In this document: positions 15,641 through 21,437 of the stretch, piece by piece
Layout: every line of letters begins with the position of its first letter
Position numbering within the stretch: the stretch's first letter is position 1
IMG/VR virus record: IMGVR_UViG_3300009285_001025
Span: 1-21,437 of that record
Strand: one strand, 5' to 3'
Length of the DNA: 21,437 bases
From: a virus
Position numbers and translations under genes: made by a program
Notes under the pieces: model-generated
What the model saw: only the letters and a program-made list of their open reading frames with translations
Databases searched by the model: none
What the model was told of the DNA's origin: nothing

Positions 15641-15662
15641 GTAAACTAGAAAGGGAATGACC

Positions 15663-15827
15663 ATGCGAATGAAAGCTAATACCGTTGTCGTGTCTTTCCG
15701 CCTGCCCCGGCCATTGATTGACAGGCTCAAGGGCACAGTGAGAGCGAATAAGCCAGCGATCAAGGACATGACCCATGCCGCAGAAATAGCTATAACGGAC
15801 TGGGTTGAGCGGAATGAAAAGAAATAG
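15663..15827 (+). CDS. Ribbon-helix-helix DNA-binding regulator (Arc/CopG-like)
   Basis: 54 residues from ATG 15663, preferred because AAAGG lies eight bases upstream; an ATG two codons earlier (15657) is too close to that site. The sequence follows the ribbon-helix-helix plan: strand VVVSFRLP (residues about 8-15), helix A from RPLIDRLKGTVRAN, turn, and helix B from MTHAAEIAITDWVERN. Such proteins bind as dimers to inverted repeats through the strand and often repress their own operon. The repeats at 14801-14873 upstream of this island are the likely target. Fold call is from pattern; repression is inference. Confidence 0.7.
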   Translation: MRMKANTVVVSFRLPRPLIDRLKGTVRANKPAIKDMTHAAEIAITDWVERNEKK

Positions 15828-15845
15828 TGGGCACGAATTGTACTG

Positions 15846-15874
15846 AAGGCGCGCTGTCAATGACGGCGCGCTTT
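15846..15874. terminator. Bidirectional hairpin between convergent operons
   Basis: A 13-bp stem with two G-U pairs (arms 15846-15858 and 15862-15874, core GGCGCGC/GCGCGCT) closes a three-base AAT loop. It lies where the plus-strand island and the minus-strand glycosyltransferase operon meet, and it covers the end of the 33-codon gene. Neither side has a long T-run (TTT on the plus side), so termination strength is uncertain. Confidence 0.6.
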
Positions 15875-15958
15875 GAGTATGAACCGAATAAGTGGAACCC
15901 AAACGGGCGATAGCATCACCACGAATACGACCACCAACATTACGCTTTCCTCATCCAT
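15857..15958 (-). CDS. 33-residue single-pass membrane peptide after the family-4 glycosyltransferase
   Basis: The ATG at 15958 overlaps the end of the glycosyltransferase gene by eight bases, with GAGGG six bases upstream. After an acidic start (MDEES), residues 6-28 are almost entirely hydrophobic (Val, Met, Leu, Phe), followed by a basic tail (KARRH). This acidic outside, basic inside pattern suits a single membrane helix. Its stop codon lies in the terminator stem. It is very short, so the call rests on the overlap, the ribosome site and its resemblance in layout to the 29-residue peptide two genes upstream. Function unknown; perhaps a membrane anchor or partner for the enzyme. Confidence 0.6.
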   Translation of the reverse strand: MDEESVMLVVVFVVMLSPVWVPLIRFILKARRH

Positions 15959-17003
15959 TGAGTGCCCTCATTATCGCGTGTACTGACTTCTCTAAGGTGA
16001 ATAACCCTGCCGTCTCTACCGCGTTGCTACTGAGCTTACCCATGTCACTCATAAGCATCTCGTGTACCTTCGTTGCCCACCTCTCCGCGTCCAAAGGCAG
16101 GACATAGCCATTTAACCTGTGCCACACCATCTCATTCGCACACGCCGCGTTTTCGCACGTTATGACCGGGACGCCAGAGGCCAGGGCCTCGCCTGCAACT
16201 TGGCCCCATAGCTCACACCGCGTCGGCATTAACAGGATCTGTGAGAGACGGTAGAAATATGGCATTTGGTCGTAGTCAACCTTGTGGACCACCCTCAGAC
16301 TTACCTCAGAATTGACCAACCTTTTGAACTCAGGGTATAGCGGACCATCCCCAATGATTAAGGCTGAGGTGTGCCTAACGATGGAAAGACGGTTCAAGAC
16401 TTCCGCTACGAATAGGGGCATTTTCCGGTCAACAAATTGAGCCACATAAATAACGTCATAGAGTTTCGGCGTTATCTCTAGCGGATAGAATCTATGCGTG
16501 TCAATCGGGATATGGCTTACAACGGGATCTGCCCCGTACTCCCGATACAGACTTCGCCCCTTCTCACCAGCTACTATCACCGCGTCCGCGTGTCTAGCCA
16601 TTAGACCCTTGAGCCATCGCTGACGGGGTGTGTAATGATCTTCCCACAACTTCCAGGAGTCAGACCATAGTATGACCCTCCGCCCGTGCATCTTCGCCCA
16701 CAAGTAAGCAGCTTGACCCGTGAACCCATCACCGTAGATCATCACCACATCAGGGTTGAATAGTCCCGCCTGTCTGAATATGTCAGGATTGACATGGCGG
16801 AATCCCTCATCACCATACTTCACGATATGCCTTTTGAGGAAGATAGAATTGTGCCCGAAATCCGTGGAGTGCCACGGTCTATTTTCCTCGCGGCGCGTGG
16901 AATATATCACAAGGAAATTCCCTTGACCTAACTTAGAGGCCAATAGGTCATAGGTGTCTAGCCTGTAGGGATAGGGCTGATTGGCGATGAGGGCTAGTTT
17001 CAT
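15951..17003 (-). CDS. Family-4-type glycosyltransferase
   Basis: 350 residues from ATG 17003, which overlaps the stop of the 29-codon gene as ATGA; a longer frame to 17075 is unlikely. Two Rossmann halves are visible: an N-terminal half starting MKLALIANQPYPYR, and a C-terminal sugar-nucleotide half with LIIGDGPLY (residues about 215-223) and the EX7E motif of retaining GT-B enzymes, E264 and E272 in CELWGQVAGEA. GVPVITC follows, as expected. Such enzymes transfer a sugar from a nucleotide donor to a lipid, glycan or protein acceptor at the inner face of the membrane. Donor and acceptor cannot be told. It is part of the coupled surface-modification operon. Confidence 0.88.
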   Translation of the reverse strand: MKLALIANQPYPYRLDTYDLLASKLGQGNFLVIYSTRREENRPWHSTDFGHNSIFLKRHIVKYGDEGFRHVNPDIFRQAGLFNPDVVMIYGDGFTGQAAYLWAKMHGRRVILWSDSWKLWEDHYTPRQRWLKGLMARHADAVIVAGEKGRSLYREYGADPVVSHIPIDTHRFYPLEITPKLYDVIYVAQFVDRKMPLFVAEVLNRLSIVRHTSALIIGDGPLYPEFKRLVNSEVSLRVVHKVDYDQMPYFYRLSQILLMPTRCELWGQVAGEALASGVPVITCENAACANEMVWHRLNGYVLPLDAERWATKVHEMLMSDMGKLSSNAVETAGLFTLEKSVHAIMRALNG

Positions 17004-17089
17004 TTCTTGCGCCCACCTTGGTTTTCTTCTAAAATTACCAAAAGAAACACCGTTACCAGAACCGCGGCAAGGCAAATGCCCATACCCAT
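17000..17089 (-). CDS. 29-residue single-pass membrane peptide between two glycosyltransferases
   Basis: The ATG at 17089 lies one base after the stop of the family-2 enzyme, with AGGAAGGGG seven bases upstream, and the TGA overlaps the ATG of the family-4 enzyme. Residues 1-20 are hydrophobic (Met, Gly, Ala, Val, Leu, Ile, Phe, one Cys), followed by a polar basic tail EENQGGRKK. The coupling on both sides makes it a likely real gene despite its size. A role as a membrane anchor or assembly partner for the flanking enzymes is inference. Confidence 0.68.
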   Translation of the reverse strand: MGMGICLAAVLVTVFLLVILEENQGGRKK

Positions 17090-17090
17090 T

Positions 17091-17870
17091 TTATTTCCCC
17101 TTCCTGATTATCCTCCACATCCTGACCATCGCATACCCCCATACCCTCACTAGGTTTGGGATCTTCCACAAAAGCGGCGCACACATCAATACGTACACTG
17201 AATAGTAAATTGGATTATGCACACACTTGATACTGAACAGTTCCCGGATTGTCTCTGGCTCTGTGATGCCCGTCCGCGTCTCGTCCACGGTCAACTCAAG
17301 GTCAAACGGTGCGAATGGCTCTAGCCTCTTGAGTGCCTTGCACGTCCACGCGTAATCTGAACAATAATGAGGCAAGAGCCACTTGTGAAACTTGACTCTC
17401 TCAAAATCTGACCACATCATAAACACGGCACGATTGGACAGCGCATTGGGGATGAGGGAATTGACCGTTGAGATTGCCCCAAACTGACGCGTGAATATCC
17501 ACTCCCACAAGACTCGCTTACCATCTCCCGCCCAGTGAACTATCCGCCCCGGCTTGCAATGCTTGACGGCCGTCTCAATGAAGTCCGGGCCAAAGGTCGT
17601 ATCGTTGTTCATCACTCCCACGATGTCCCCCGGCCTAGCTAGTCTCGCAATATACCTCTGTCCCGCCTGGAGTGACCCCGCCCAATAGTTCCCGCTTGAT
17701 ACGCGGATGCACTCATAGTAACAGCCCGGAGCCGTAGCCTCGCAAGTCCCGCAGTCCTTCGTCCCGCTATCCACCCAGACTATCATCCACGGCTTGACGG
17801 TCTGGGCGCGTAGGCACTTGATGAACTCACTCACGTTCTCGTTATGAATCGGGAGAATGAGAAAGGTCAT
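17091..17870 (-). CDS. Family-2-type glycosyltransferase (rhamnosyltransferase-like)
   Basis: 259 residues. The GT-A fold is indicated by LILPIHNENV at the start, VWVDSGTKD (D34) in the nucleotide-binding part, and GVMNNDTTFGPDFIE (N88-N89-D90) at the metal and sugar site. Later a HYCSDYAWTCKA segment (D172) resembles the acceptor-side motif of WbbL-like enzymes. The C-terminus (about residues 221-255) is hydrophobic and ends basic (RIIRKGK), so the protein probably sits on the membrane. It overlaps the upstream small membrane gene by ATGA. Specificity is not determinable; rhamnose is only a resemblance. Confidence 0.85.
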   Translation of the reverse strand: MTFLILPIHNENVSEFIKCLRAQTVKPWMIVWVDSGTKDCGTCEATAPGCYYECIRVSSGNYWAGSLQAGQRYIARLARPGDIVGVMNNDTTFGPDFIETAVKHCKPGRIVHWAGDGKRVLWEWIFTRQFGAISTVNSLIPNALSNRAVFMMWSDFERVKFHKWLLPHYCSDYAWTCKALKRLEPFAPFDLELTVDETRTGITEPETIRELFSIKCVHNPIYYSVYVLMCAPLLWKIPNLVRVWGYAMVRMWRIIRKGK

Positions 17871-18115
17871 TTCTTAGTATTCCTCATTAACTGACGCCAT
17901 TGCGGGTTGATTGTGCTGGAATAGTCATACTCGCTTGGCGCGATGTATCTCAGGTCAATCCACATAAACACAACTGAGAACGCAAACCCAGCTACGACCC
18001 ACCACCAAGATATGCCAGAGTCCCGGACAAACAAGTAGACGATCATCAGGAAGTTCATCCCGGCGGCGTAGTTCTTCCAGCGTTCAAAAACGAACTTGAC
18101 TTTACCGATGGTCAT
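17867..18115 (-). CDS. Small two-helix membrane protein
   Basis: 82 residues with ATGA overlaps at both ends (with the radical SAM gene and the glycosyltransferase gene). Two membrane helices are seen, about residues 18-31 and 36-54 (the second with WWWVVAGFAFSVVFMW). The C-terminal tail is soluble and carries APSEYDY then NPQWRQL. I know no function. The gene is wedged between two enzymes and strictly coupled to both, so it probably works with them, perhaps as a scaffold at the membrane. Confidence 0.75.
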   Translation of the reverse strand: MTIGKVKFVFERWKNYAAGMNFLMIVYLFVRDSGISWWWVVAGFAFSVVFMWIDLRYIAPSEYDYSSTINPQWRQLMRNTKK

Positions 18116-18786
18116 TCAGCCACCTTCGGTACTTGTTGCAGTGGCGGGCAATGATTAACAATCGTCCCGCCCATCCTCTCGTGATATACCGGGGTGCAAC
18201 CGATATACAGCTCCCTCGTCCGCGGACTATCCGGCGCAAAGTGCAGAGTATTGAACGCCCGTATATCTTCTGCGCTATACTTCCCCTTGTAAATCGACTC
18301 AGGGAGTATCATTGGGGATTCAATCTCATTCACCGATATGTTGATATGCTTGAGCCTGATATCCTGTACGTGCCTCACAAACTCATCCTTAATGTCCGTG
18401 TGATGGAATGTAGCCCATACGTTGAATCTCTTGGACGGCTTACACCGGATTATCTCAGAGACGTTCTTGAGGTTGGAATAGATCCTCACATCCGTTCCCC
18501 TATCTGTCAGGTAATTAACTATCTTGTGCATACCGAGATGGAACGATGGCTCACCCCCGGAAATACAGACATAGGAGATCCACTCAGGGTATTCGGTCCC
18601 TAGAAACTCAACCCATTCCTCGGCGGTGCATTCCTCATACTTCTGCACCTTACCCTCTGTAAACATGGGGCAATATCCACAGTGAAGATTGCACTTCGTT
18701 GTGAGTATCAACGTGAACCACGCGCCACGTGTGTACTTCCCGCCCCGACGTGGATTAACCAATAGCTTATTGAATAAACTACTCAT
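18112..18786 (-). CDS. Radical SAM enzyme
   Basis: 224 residues from ATG 18786, which overlaps the upstream stop by ATGA and has AAAGGAGAG before it; a longer ORF to 18840 lacks such support. The iron-sulphur motif CX3CX2C is seen as KCNLHCGYC (C32, C36, C39), followed by a GGEP motif (residues 77-80) that binds S-adenosylmethionine, and YSNLKN after it. Two later cysteines (C197 and C213) might hold an extra cluster. The family makes 5'-deoxyadenosyl radicals and modifies sugars, peptides, or nucleic acids. Context with two glycosyltransferases suggests a sugar, lipid or peptide substrate. The CX3CX2C motif and lack of QueE-type flanks argue against deazaguanine synthesis. Confidence 0.88.
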   Translation of the reverse strand: MSSLFNKLLVNPRRGGKYTRGAWFTLILTTKCNLHCGYCPMFTEGKVQKYEECTAEEWVEFLGTEYPEWISYVCISGGEPSFHLGMHKIVNYLTDRGTDVRIYSNLKNVSEIIRCKPSKRFNVWATFHHTDIKDEFVRHVQDIRLKHINISVNEIESPMILPESIYKGKYSAEDIRAFNTLHFAPDSPRTRELYIGCTPVYHERMGGTIVNHCPPLQQVPKVAE

Positions 18787-18968
18787 ACCGCTCTCTCCTT
18801 TAGTTCGTGAATGATCGCCGCCACTCCCAAAACAATGCAACCGGGGGCTAGAAAGTGTAAGATTGCCAAGAACAAATCCGGCGGAACGCGAAAATACAGC
18901 CCCGGCCCGTCACCATAGAGGAATACGTTGAGCAAGCCAAGCACAACGACAAGTAATACCTTCCTCAT
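18783..18968 (-). CDS. Small two-helix membrane protein upstream of radical SAM enzyme
   Basis: 61 residues. The ATG overlaps the previous stop as ATGA, and the stop overlaps the radical SAM start as ATGA. Hydrophobic segments are seen at about residues 4-18 and 31-53, with Pro-rich turn (RVPPD) between. The N-terminus (MRK then hydrophobic) could also be read as a signal anchor. No family recognised. It opens the coupled membrane-and-enzyme chain. A holin is possible from the shape but the context points to the enzyme module. Confidence 0.72.
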   Translation of the reverse strand: MRKVLLVVVLGLLNVFLYGDGPGLYFRVPPDLFLAILHFLAPGCIVLGVAAIIHELKERAV

Positions 18969-19252
18969 TTCTTCTCTCCCTCTTTGGGATAGGAAAATTG
19001 CGATTTACGTTCACTGTGTTCCGGCTCCCAGCTTTTCACGTTTGGCGTCATCCCGATTGTCTCCTTGATCTTCTCCAGCAGCTCCACACCTTTTGCCCCG
19101 TCCAATCCATCATCGTCATACACGGCGTTGCAAATGGCGTCGTAGCAAGAATCCAAAAGCGCTGTCAACAAGTCGGTTCGCGCGACCAATTGGTTTTCCC
19201 TTTGGCCCCATTGTAAACTCGCATTTCTCATTTCTTCGGTCAGCTCTTTCAT
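18965..19252 (-). CDS. Hypothetical soluble protein
   Basis: 95 residues, helical and acidic, with two Cys (residues about 36 and 41), no membrane segment. A GGAGGG site precedes ATG 19252. The sequence has a heptad-like N-terminal region (MKELTEEMRN) and a middle helix with VELLEKIKETIG; the C-terminal 25 residues are polar and probably unfolded. No family recognised. It links the small-gene block to the membrane/enzyme chain through an ATGA overlap with the next gene. Confidence 0.75.
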   Translation of the reverse strand: MKELTEEMRNASLQWGQRENQLVARTDLLTALLDSCYDAICNAVYDDDGLDGAKGVELLEKIKETIGMTPNVKSWEPEHSERKSQFSYPKEGEKK

Positions 19253-19271
19253 TATGCTTCTCCCTCCTTCG

Positions 19272-19487
19272 TTAAATACGTTCGCCTATAGCCCGTAGGA
19301 TGTCTTTCGCAACCGTTAACCCGTTGATATAGCTCTGCGTTGTCAGCGCCCTGACTATCTCTTTCCTCTTTGCTGCTTCTCTGCGTTGTCTTACTCCATC
19401 GGTAATCGCCAGGTTGATAGCCTTGCGAAGCTCGAATCGTAGTTGCTTTGCCGTCATCTGTGGTTTTGTGTCTTGCAAGTGTCGCAT
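19272..19487 (-). CDS. Small basic hypothetical protein
   Basis: 71 residues from ATG 19487, which is preceded by AAGGAG seven bases away; a longer frame to 19514 lacks that site. The protein is basic and mostly helical. Its opening MRHLQDTKP strongly resembles the opening MRHWQNTKP of the gene at 21117-21380, and the match continues in scattered positions (L, LR). A shared start with different later sequence could mean distant paralogues or a common N-terminal signal. Function unknown. A different frame over the same bases (19252-19521) has an Arg/Ser/Thr-rich shadow translation and is rejected. Confidence 0.7.
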   Translation of the reverse strand: MRHLQDTKPQMTAKQLRFELRKAINLAITDGVRQRREAAKRKEIVRALTTQSYINGLTVAKDILRAIGERI

Positions 19488-19501
19488 TATTATTCTCCTT
19501 T

Positions 19502-19651
19502 TTAGAGACGCCACTCTTCAAGCATTTTCTCTTGTTCGTAAATCTTTTTCCAAAATTGTTCAGCAGTCATTTTATTGCTCCATAGATACAATCGCCAGCC
19601 CATTCTTCCAACCGCCAACCGTAAATGTTCGTACCATTTCCCGCTTCCCAT
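19502..19651 (-). CDS. 49-residue hypothetical protein
   Basis: Start ATG 19651 lies two bases after the stop of the upstream zinc-ribbon gene and has an ideal AAGGAGG site seven bases upstream (inside the previous gene's last codons). Stop at 19502-19504 is 14 bases before the next gene's ATG. The sequence is rich in Trp (five), Lys and Glu, with helix-forming stretches (LRLAVGRMGWR and EQFWKKIYEQEKML). It is too short for domain calls; the ribosome site and tight packing make it a likely real gene. Confidence 0.7.
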   Translation of the reverse strand: MGSGKWYEHLRLAVGRMGWRLYLWSNKMTAEQFWKKIYEQEKMLEEWRL

Positions 19652-19653
19652 AG

Positions 19654-20094
19654 TCAAACCTCCTTCCATTTGCCGTTAGTCAGGTAGCCATGACGCTTGA
19701 CTGGTTTTCCGTTATCGTGTCCCACCACCTCTATGGAGGGCGTTACAGTAATTGTTCCGTCTTGATTTTCGATAACCGTGTGTGCTTTGAGGCTTCCGAC
19801 GCCGCAACGCGGAATGTATAAATACCATGAATCAGCTTCGACATTCTTCCAATAACACATCTTGTCTTGGACAATTTCATTATGTCTATCGACTCGCAGG
19901 GCTACCTGTTCCATCGAACGTCCCTTTAGATGAAGGAATTGAATGAGTTTTTCTTTTTCGGAAGCGTAGTCGTGCGAGGCTTTCCAATAGAATTTCTCTT
20001 GCCTTAGCGTTGGATGATTAGCCAGGCATTTGTCACAAAACTTTTCGTACATCGGAACCATTTGATCGCACAGAAGACAGGTTGAGTAACTCAT
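19654..20094 (-). CDS. Zinc-ribbon protein with C-terminal beta domain
   Basis: 146 residues. The N-terminus shows C6-X2-C9-X10-C20-X2-C23, a zinc ribbon; a short helical segment follows (EKEKLIQFLHLKGRSMEQ). The last 50 residues (from about SLKAHTVIENQDGT) contain TITVTPSIEVVG and HGYLTNGKW, a pattern like the DUF6527-type domain found in phage proteins, although that match is weak and without the usual cysteines. The ATG overlaps the upstream stop as ATGA. Likely nucleic-acid or protein binding through the ribbon, which is inference. Confidence 0.75.
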   Translation of the reverse strand: MSYSTCLLCDQMVPMYEKFCDKCLANHPTLRQEKFYWKASHDYASEKEKLIQFLHLKGRSMEQVALRVDRHNEIVQDKMCYWKNVEADSWYLYIPRCGVGSLKAHTVIENQDGTITVTPSIEVVGHDNGKPVKRHGYLTNGKWKEV

Positions 20095-20336
20095 TTTTCT
20101 CCTTCTACCCCTTCGGGCGGCCAGACGCTTGTTCCCATCTCCGAATCGGTCTCCAATAAATCTTGGACTGAACGTGGGGATTTGTAATCCATAAGTCGCA
20201 TGATCTTCCTGATGCTGATTCCCTCGGAACGTAGGAACCGGGCGACGCGGACGGCCCGCGTTTTGTCGAGTTTGTCATCCTCGAACACCTTGCCCGTTCC
20301 AAGACAACATTCACAGGTTAACATTCGCTCAGTCAT
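20091..20336 (-). CDS. Small protein with CxCC motif and LexA-like helix-turn-helix
   Basis: 81 residues from ATG 20336, with GGGAGG about 12 bases upstream; a longer frame to 20417 overlaps the preceding gene and is less likely. The N-terminus has C8-E-C10-C11-x-G-x-G, similar to half of a DnaJ-type zinc site. Residues about 27-59 form a helical region whose second part, IRKIMRLMDYKSPRSVQDLL, resembles the LexA DNA-binding segment (DYKSPRSV compared with the family's typical RSP-S/N pattern). Regulator or DNA-binding accessory protein is the reasonable guess. ATGA overlap joins it to the next gene. Confidence 0.65.
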   Translation of the reverse strand: MTERMLTCECCLGTGKVFEDDKLDKTRAVRVARFLRSEGISIRKIMRLMDYKSPRSVQDLLETDSEMGTSVWPPEGVEGEK

Positions 20337-20344
20337 GTTGCTCT

Positions 20345-20539
20345 TTATCCTCCCTTCGGTAGTGTTATCTTTTCTCCCGCGTGTCCCATCGCCATTTTGA
20401 GAACGGTTAGACCCCACTGGACACTTTGAAGTTCATCTTGGAGTTGCTTTACCAGGTCTGGCGATATCCCGTCATTGAAAAGGCTTATTTTGGCAAGTAA
20501 ACAGCTTTCTCGCTCTTCAAGCAGTTCGATTGCCCACAC
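20345..20539 (-). CDS. Small helical hypothetical protein
   Basis: 64 residues, starting at GTG 20539 with GGAGG six bases before it, and overlapping the previous gene's end by 23 bases. Helix-rich (MWAIELLEERESCLLAKI; DLVKQLQDELQSVQWGLTVLK) with possible coiled coil. No motif recognised. The tight overlap implies coupled translation with the preceding gene. Confidence 0.65.
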   Translation of the reverse strand: MWAIELLEERESCLLAKISLFNDGISPDLVKQLQDELQSVQWGLTVLKMAMGHAGEKITLPKGG

Positions 20540-20945
20540 TTTGCGCCTCCAGTTTCTCGATTAGATTCTTGTAATCGTAAATTTCATCGCTGTGTAATGC
20601 AAGTGCTTCAATGAGCATCTGCCTTGCCAGTGCCCCGCGAATTGGATATCCCTCGTAAACATCATAGAGGGTTATTCCGCGTTGGAATGGCGGATAGCTT
20701 GAATTGATAGGAATATTCTGTTCAATGTATGCCCTGTCCAATTTTTCCACTTCGGCAACGGTCAGTTCCTCGTATTTTAGATTTCTTGGTGTTTCATGCG
20801 GAATCGCGATGAACAAAATTAAATCCTTCAACCGTACCGTATGGCCATATTCTCGTGCGGTTTCCTTGCGTGCAACGATCCAATATTCTTCTTCGCTCAT
20901 CAAGATTTTCTTCAGCATATCAATGGTTGATTCAACGTTTGTCAT
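20517..20945 (-). CDS. Hypothetical soluble protein
   Basis: 142 residues from ATG 20945, which has GGGAGGG upstream and overlaps the preceding gene by 14 bases; the longer frame to 21044 has a shadow-like, Arg/Thr-rich start and is discarded. The protein is mixed helix and strand, with MSEEEYWIVARKE near residue 16 and EYGHTVRLKDLILFIAIPHETPR after. No Cys. No known domain recognised. The neighbours are similarly small unknown genes. Confidence 0.7.
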   Translation of the reverse strand: MTNVESTIDMLKKILMSEEEYWIVARKETAREYGHTVRLKDLILFIAIPHETPRNLKYEELTVAEVEKLDRAYIEQNIPINSSYPPFQRGITLYDVYEGYPIRGALARQMLIEALALHSDEIYDYKNLIEKLEAQSVGNRTA

Positions 20946-21120
20946 TTTCTTGATCCCTCCCATCATACGTGAAGGCCAAGCCCACTTCACCGCGCACGAG
21001 GTGTTTGTATTTCTTCGCGTGCTGAGCCGCCAATGCCTGACCATTTATGTGGCTTTCAAACAACTTCCCACAGGTTTCGCACCTCGCTAAGCAATGTATC
21101 ACTCCGATATCCTTTTTCAT
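20932..21120 (-). CDS. Small Cys/His-type putative zinc finger protein
   Basis: 62 residues. It contains CETCGKLFES (C14-X2-C17) followed by H31? and an AAQHAKKYKH region; the two Cys and the two last His (QH and KH, five residues apart) form a degenerate C2H2-like finger, spacing wider than the classical 12. The CETCG start is identical to that of the C2H2 finger in the gene at 6335-6628. Its ATG overlaps the preceding gene's stop as ATGA. Zinc binding is inferred. Confidence 0.65.
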   Translation of the reverse strand: MKKDIGVIHCLARCETCGKLFESHINGQALAAQHAKKYKHLVRGEVGLAFTYDGRDQENDKR

Positions 21121-21380
21121 TCTGGTAAAACCTCCGTGTCACAACAGTGTGGATGGAAAAGAACGAGTTTCTTTGCTTTCAACAAATCGCCCGCACTATA
21201 GGGGCTTCCAATAATGTGATTCCCTTCCTTTGCCATCCAAGACCAACCGCCCGCCGCTCGTTGCCAATAACCGGATCGCACACGTCTAAACTCAAGAACC
21301 TCAAAACCGAAATCTTGCCGCAATCGCTCCGCAAGTCGCTCAAATGTCGTCAAGGGTTTTGTATTCTGCCAATGCCTCAT
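21117..21380 (-). CDS. Small hypothetical protein
   Basis: 87 residues. It opens MRHWQNTKP, closely like the gene at 19272-19487. The middle is aromatic and basic (FRRVRSGYWQRAAGGWSWM), with a late HPHCCDTE that could bind metal. The ATG overlaps the upstream partial gene's stop as ATGA and its own stop overlaps the next ATG in the same way. Family unknown; its tight packing supports reality. Confidence 0.7.
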   Translation of the reverse strand: MRHWQNTKPLTTFERLAERLRQDFGFEVLEFRRVRSGYWQRAAGGWSWMAKEGNHIIGSPYSAGDLLKAKKLVLFHPHCCDTEVLPE

Positions 21381-21437
21381 TTCCCGCCCTTCAGTTTATC
21401 GCGTAGCTTACGCACCGCTTCTTCTGGGGTTGGCAGA
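21377..21437 (-). CDS. C-terminal end of a gene cut by the right window edge
   Basis: The open frame enters from the right edge and ends LPTPEEAVRKLRDKLKGGK with a TGA that overlaps the next ATG (ATGA). Only 19 residues are visible: an acidic then basic amphipathic helix. It shows that the minus-strand operon continues beyond the window. Nothing can be said about its function. Confidence 0.6.
   Translation of the reverse strand, partial: LPTPEEAVRKLRDKLKGGK

Follow-up and report, generated by a model that had tools for sequence, protein, structure and literature searches.

We analyzed a block of seven genes in the IMG/VR virus record IMGVR_UViG_3300009285_001025, whose 21,437 bases are referred to here as the window. 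The block runs on the minus strand from 18968 to 15857 and encodes a radical S-adenosylmethionine (SAM) protein, two glycosyltransferases of family-2 (GT2) and family-4 (GT4) type, and four small hydrophobic proteins of 61, 82, 29, and 33 amino acids (aa). The genes are listed below in coding order, followed by a hairpin at the end of the block; each Shine-Dalgarno (SD) value is a pairing energy with the anti-SD sequence in kcal/mol.

18783..18968, minus strand: first gene, 61-aa hydrophobic protein, probably with two transmembrane segments (SD -8.5; hydropathy 2.35)
18112..18786, minus strand: radical SAM protein, 224 aa (Pfam PF04055, phrog_13987, alignments, and Cys positions)
17867..18115, minus strand: 82-aa protein, probably with two transmembrane segments and a polar C-terminal tail (SD -7.3; hydropathy 1.79)
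17091..17870, minus strand: family-2-like (GT-A) glycosyltransferase, 259 aa (PF00535; alignment with a Sinorhizobium GT2)
17000..17089, minus strand: 29-aa single-helix membrane peptide (SD AGGAAGGGG, -7.9; hydropathy 2.85)
15951..17003, minus strand: family-4-like (GT-B) glycosyltransferase, 350 aa (PF13692, PF00534, and motifs)
15857..15958, minus strand: last gene, 33-aa single-helix membrane peptide (SD -6.1; hydropathy 2.69)
15835..15885, minus strand: hairpin with a GCGCGC stem and no T-run (minimum free energy -17.2 kcal/mol, z -4.2)

All seven open reading frames (ORFs) were found on the minus strand in the order and at the coordinates given in a preliminary description of this DNA. 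The first three junctions (61-aa/radical SAM, radical SAM/82-aa, and 82-aa/GT2) each overlap by 4 nt. The GT2 and 29-aa genes are separated by a one-base gap, the 29-aa and GT4 genes overlap by 4 nt, and the GT4 and 33-aa genes overlap by 8 nt, in agreement with the junctions previously described. An SD-like site is present at all seven starts, each with an anti-SD pairing of -6.1 kcal/mol or better, compared to a median of -3.0 kcal/mol over 366 ATGs on the same strand. The overlaps and SD sites support the earlier suggestion that the genes are probably made together. The overlaps alone do not mark a seven-gene unit, because the 61-aa gene shares a similar 4-nt overlap with an upstream 95-aa gene and ATGA overlaps are found elsewhere in the phage as well; a unit defined by ATGA overlaps was therefore rejected as an overclaim.

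The radical SAM protein matched Pfam Radical_SAM (PF04055) with an E value of 2e-9 and 38.1 bits against a cut-off of 29.5, which identifies it as a member of the superfamily, and it also matched phrog_13987 (E 4e-12). The CX3CX2C motif (C32/C36/C39) and the GGEP motif (residues 77-80) are intact. The C-terminus is short, with only C197 and C213 following residue 115, and by its sequence has too few cysteines for a complete SPASM/twitch auxiliary cluster, which places the protein outside that subgroup. The protein matched no NCBIfam equivalog at the equivalog's own cut-off. The GT4 protein matched Glyco_trans_1_4 (PF13692) with an E value of 1e-14 and 55.5 bits against a cut-off of 27, and PF00534 with an E value of 4e-13. 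Its donor-site motifs are intact, with EX7E at 264-272 (E264-E272) and VDRK at 191, as expected of family 4, and it is 24% identical to a Pseudobutyrivibrio GT4 over 99% of its length.

The GT2 assignment is less direct. Glycos_transf_2 (PF00535) was matched with an E value of 1e-4 and 22.4 bits, just below the cut-off of 23.3, or 23.6 bits with neighboring stretches, and the protein is 27% identical over 88% to an annotated GT2 of Sinorhizobium sp. B11. It retains VDSG, YWAGS, NNDT, and LPHYCSDY, motifs also seen in a GT2 from a bacterial polysaccharide cluster (the last as an LPHYxxDY region), and its sequence is distant from those of known family members. The enzyme identities and motifs of the preliminary description were thus borne out, with the GT2 match just under its cut-off. 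That description had also looked to profile and structure searches; the profiles identified the families, and the predicted structures were poor. The radical SAM model had a predicted local distance difference test (pLDDT) score of 57 and gave generic radical SAM matches with Foldseek, so that it was not used for function, and the GT2 model had a pLDDT of 36.

Hydropathy was taken from the best 19-residue stretch of each protein, and a value of 1.6 is reached by 8.6% of the short ORFs in the window. All four small ORFs of the block are hydrophobic, with the values listed above, compared to 4 of 26 other small ORFs (hypergeometric p 0.0026), the latter being those on the coding strand of G002, one of three sister contigs described below, that lie outside the block and have an SD site. 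This difference reflects clustering of membrane proteins and not functional pairing. Together with the strong SD pairing and the high hydropathy, it makes it unlikely that the four are chance ORFs, and the four hydrophobic products support the membrane association that had been proposed. Each contains one Cys or none. The 61-aa protein had no significant family in Pfam, PHROGs, or NCBIfam, and the 82-aa protein had no match among phage records by tblastn at E<=5. A 28-aa single-helix hydrophobic peptide is also encoded elsewhere in the same phage (G002 40605-40691).

Close relatives of the three enzymes were sought widely. In a search of 2.9 million viral contigs, close relatives of the radical SAM, GT2, and GT4 proteins came from the three sisters alone, and a specific radical SAM DNA pattern and two GT2-based viral scans likewise recovered only the sister contigs. 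A tblastn search of phage records gave no radical SAM match at 1e-5, with weak ones above that value, no GT2 match, and one weak GT4 match in an unannotated record resembling a bacterial polysaccharide locus. No close GT4 relative was found in 84,980 species genomes, and a radical SAM profile found only distant radical SAM proteins of varied bacteria and archaea; no donor can therefore be named.

A radical SAM profile scan returned 44 viral loci, sisters included, and we surveyed 32 non-sister radical SAM records and one sister for two glycosyltransferase families, with a second pattern adding 16 further records. Most of the surveyed records had no glycosyltransferase detected near the radical SAM gene. 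The best viral relative, a 221-aa radical SAM protein with 31% identity over the aligned part, is encoded in IMGVR_UViG_3300005663_000064 (L037). There, an upstream overlapping ORF that is glycosyltransferase-like by eye but has no Pfam family is followed by the radical SAM gene, a further ORF to which Pfam assigns no family, and a GT4 gene; an SU10-type major capsid gene lies a short distance upstream of this group. Another locus (L038:4501-6069) encodes a 522-aa protein having an N-terminal GT2 and a C-terminal radical SAM domain, L047 has radical SAM genes plus several GT2 genes, and G041 and G040 have GT2 matches within radical SAM arrays. The combination of radical SAM and glycosyltransferase genes thus recurs in viral contigs, as judged by profile matches, which is a statement of recurrence and not of statistical enrichment. 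The fusion gene of L038 sits in an array with several other radical SAM genes and a 2-oxoglutarate (2OG)-Fe(II) oxygenase. The 5093-base contig IMGVR_UViG_3300042335_000480 (L145) had GT4 and GT2 matches, a radical SAM pattern match not backed by Pfam, methyltransferase-like ORFs by eye, and an 81-aa hydrophobic ORF near its end.

In a plasmid collection, the best relatives of both glycosyltransferases lie in polysaccharide clusters with radical SAM genes. The Sinorhizobium GT2 adjoins an ABC transporter, a radical SAM gene, methyltransferases, and two more glycosyltransferases, and the Pseudobutyrivibrio GT4 is near a radical SAM gene, polysaccharide pyruvyl transferases, GH99-like genes, and an O-antigen ligase. 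The radical SAM proteins of these two clusters are not close to that of the block.

The window derives from an environmental P22-like podophage, as identified by its portal protein (P22_portal, PF16510, E 2e-86), a major capsid protein matching PF13252 and PHROG 334, and a large terminase matching PHROG 2. A search of the window and the three sister contigs, which may be incomplete, detected no integrase. These sisters (IMG/VR contigs G001, G002, and G003) share stretches up to 18998 with the window at 99.99-100% identity, and the block shows no difference in any of them. Beyond 18998 they diverge from the window and match it only in short pieces that are 91% and 83% identical; across 18998-21437 the identity with G001-G003 ends abruptly some 30 bases upstream of the 61-aa gene. 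This abrupt stop, with the 83-91% piecewise identity of the neighboring small genes, suggests that the block begins at a recombination boundary. The overlap of G001 with G002 at either end points to a genome of about 43 kb that includes a variable stretch.

At the other end, the hairpin at 15835-15885 sits between the 3' end of the block and a convergent plus-strand ORF; none of 200 shuffles was equally stable, and the hairpin is a possible 3' boundary of the block. The convergent ORF (15657-15827, plus strand, 56 aa) resembles a ribbon-helix-helix regulator by eye and has no Pfam family. About 1.4 kb with opposite-strand ORFs separates the block from the packaging genes. Elsewhere in G002, ORFs resembling by eye a cytosine-5 DNA methyltransferase (37327-38424) and a pentapeptide-repeat protein (31496-32170) were noted, as were two small hydrophobic ORFs downstream of the tail region (25413-25947) that could be lysis genes.

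What the sequence itself presents, namely the enzyme families with their intact motifs, the packed genes with SD sites, and the clustered hydrophobic ORFs, argues for a co-translated, membrane-associated auxiliary cassette that would modify a host surface or lipid-linked glycan. The occurrence of the best glycosyltransferase relatives in plasmid-borne polysaccharide clusters with radical SAM genes, the viral combinations of radical SAM and glycosyltransferase genes, and a published phage precedent (PMC7029224) point the same way. We give this glycan reading roughly an even chance. From these features we infer a substrate, an order of steps, a radical SAM chemistry, roles for the small proteins, and an effect on phage competition. 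On the inner side of the host membrane, GT2 and GT4 would transfer sugars to the precursor of a surface glycan or to a comparable acceptor, and the radical SAM protein would make an oxygen-independent change to the sugar or the acceptor, such as dehydrogenation, epimerization, or deoxygenation. The small membrane proteins might tether the enzymes, soluble on their own, to the membrane or modulate them. The infected cell would then probably have altered receptor properties, which would exclude competing phages or limit the rebinding of progeny. The pathway acting on the host receptor or surface glycan, as put forward in the preliminary description, is thus the best available reading as a whole, while its substrate and steps are worded here as proposals. 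If it holds, a small podophage remodels the host surface with an oxygen-independent radical enzyme and glycosyltransferases, tiny membrane proteins place soluble enzymes at the membrane and act as their adaptors, and the block offers a compact model for phage-driven surface change, the mixture of genes itself being already known.

Several observations weigh against the glycan reading. A search for a GtrA-like flippase in the window and three sister contigs found none, and within the block we identified neither a gene for sugar-nucleotide synthesis nor a polyprenyl-phosphate transferase. GT2 has no strongly hydrophobic segment (best 1.34), so that it would associate with the membrane only indirectly. 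The relatives are distant (about 25-30% identity), so that acceptor specificity cannot be transferred from them. L037, the closest phage analogue, has no membrane peptides. The last point bears on the earlier view that a membrane partner follows each enzyme, which is true of the block itself. Homologues without the small ORFs had been named as evidence against that view, and L037 is such a case; the survey of gene neighborhoods recovered the recurrent radical SAM and glycosyltransferase combination, and in L037 the small membrane genes were absent. Because the only other copies of the block are identical, no conserved pairing of peptide and enzyme can be demonstrated. We accordingly think it improbable that each enzyme forms an obligate pair with its adjoining small membrane protein, in a miniature membrane-bound assembly line in which enzyme-specific peptides are anchors and the radical SAM enzyme alters a lipid-linked sugar built by both glycosyltransferases.

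Other explanations were considered. The block could be accessory cargo: its enzymes would act on separate substrates or on a soluble small molecule, and the small membrane ORFs packed between them would be unrelated. This phage has many small, tightly packed genes and ATGA overlaps, its sister contig G002 encodes a further 28-aa single-helix ORF (40605-40691), the peptide-enzyme link lacks support from conservation, and other phage radical SAM genes often have no detected glycosyltransferase nearby. Such cargo would leave unexplained why all four small block ORFs are hydrophobic compared to 4 of 26 elsewhere (p about 0.003), and why the best plasmid-collection glycosyltransferase relatives lie within surface-polysaccharide clusters, and we regard it as rather unlikely. 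Modification of the phage's own capsid or tail proteins, changing adsorption or stability, is unlikely: the block shares a strand with the morphogenesis genes and the L037 enzymes are encoded shortly downstream of a major capsid gene, but four membrane proteins suit a virion-protein substrate poorly, and the 1.4 kb with opposite-strand ORFs separates the block from the packaging genes.

Three further readings, each tested in part, are unlikely. Phage T4 glycosyltransferases glucosylate 5-hydroxymethylcytosine, and some thymidine hypermodification pathways involve radical SAM enzymes, so that a modified base might be built and then glycosylated. No thymidylate synthase/hydroxymethylase-type match (PF00303) was found in the window and sister contigs (three records), whereas 9 of 14 controls matched, and membrane proteins would be unexpected; the absence of this route is a further reason to favor the glycan reading, and we consider DNA hypermodification very unlikely. 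The Tet/JBP dioxygenase family (PF12851) had no match, but the control genomes gave none either. A glycosylated ribosomally synthesized and post-translationally modified peptide (RiPP), with a small ORF as precursor and the radical SAM protein as maturase, is suggested by the short peptides adjoining the enzyme and by its best PDB sequence match, the RiPP maturase SkfB (E 6e-5). That match covers only the generic radical SAM core, no RiPP equivalog cut-off was reached, and Pfam reported no RiPP recognition element (RRE) domain. With just two cysteines in the enzyme's C-terminal region, and small ORFs that encode membrane helices containing at most one Cys, this too is highly improbable. Least probable is an NrdG-like activase of anaerobic ribonucleotide reductase unrelated to the glycosyltransferases. 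NrdG2 was the top NCBIfam match (E 1.6e-9), but at 37 bits against a cut-off of 131 and over the core only, and a search for NrdD in the window and sister contigs, in which the controls worked, gave no match.

The glycan reading can be set beside known systems. The preliminary description considered the joining of a radical SAM enzyme to two glycosyltransferases unfamiliar, which the viral contigs and plasmid polysaccharide clusters above, along with the pelagimyophages (PMC7029224), contradict. Host-recognition clusters of pelagimyophages hold radical SAM cassettes and many glycosyltransferases, for which the authors propose glycosyltransferase-driven O-chain modification (PMC7029224), and Campylobacter phages CP220 and CPt10 encode 11 and 12 radical SAM proteins (PMC2853527). 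Like the block, these phages have radical SAM genes among their accessory genes, and the pelagimyophage cluster shares the glycosyltransferases as well; the word "glycosyl" is absent from the text of PMC2853527. They differ in being large and T4-like, with extended hypervariable clusters or numerous radical SAM genes, whereas in the podophage one radical SAM and two glycosyltransferase genes are packed together with four tiny membrane ORFs. L037 resembles the block in the near-equal length of its radical SAM protein (221 compared to 224 aa), the glycosyltransferase-like ORF upstream, and the GT4 gene downstream, and differs in its SU10-type capsid, its lack of a recognized GT2, the insertion of its enzymes among structural genes, and the absence of small membrane ORFs between them. 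The clusters on Sinorhizobium sp. B11 plasmid p1 and Pseudobutyrivibrio xylanivorans pNP95 have related glycosyltransferases with a radical SAM gene a few kilobases away, but many more genes (ABC exporter, methyltransferases, pyruvyl transferases, and ligase); a protein search, the sole check for tiny membrane ORFs, did not find the 61- and 82-aa proteins in them.

The P22-like phages offer a possible functional parallel. Their gtrABC operons modify O-antigen, GtrA being a proposed flippase and GtrB a bactoprenol glucosyltransferase, and gtrABC expression lowers P22 infectivity (PMC3688519). The block is alike in being a short operon that combines membrane proteins with glycosyltransferases that would act on surface glycans, in a phage with the same portal type. 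It differs in that GtrA (PF04138) had no match in the window or three sister contigs, where the control matched 11 of 14 genomes, and in that its only large proteins are the radical SAM, GT2, and GT4 proteins, so that a radical SAM enzyme and a GT4 stand in place of GtrA and the large multi-span GtrC. We therefore rejected the block as a gtrABC operon, though it may work similarly. Its distinctive feature is the interleaved membrane peptides, which rest on effectively one sequence; with these, the block is a compact variant of a loose, known kind of phage accessory cluster that joins radical SAM and glycosyltransferase genes.

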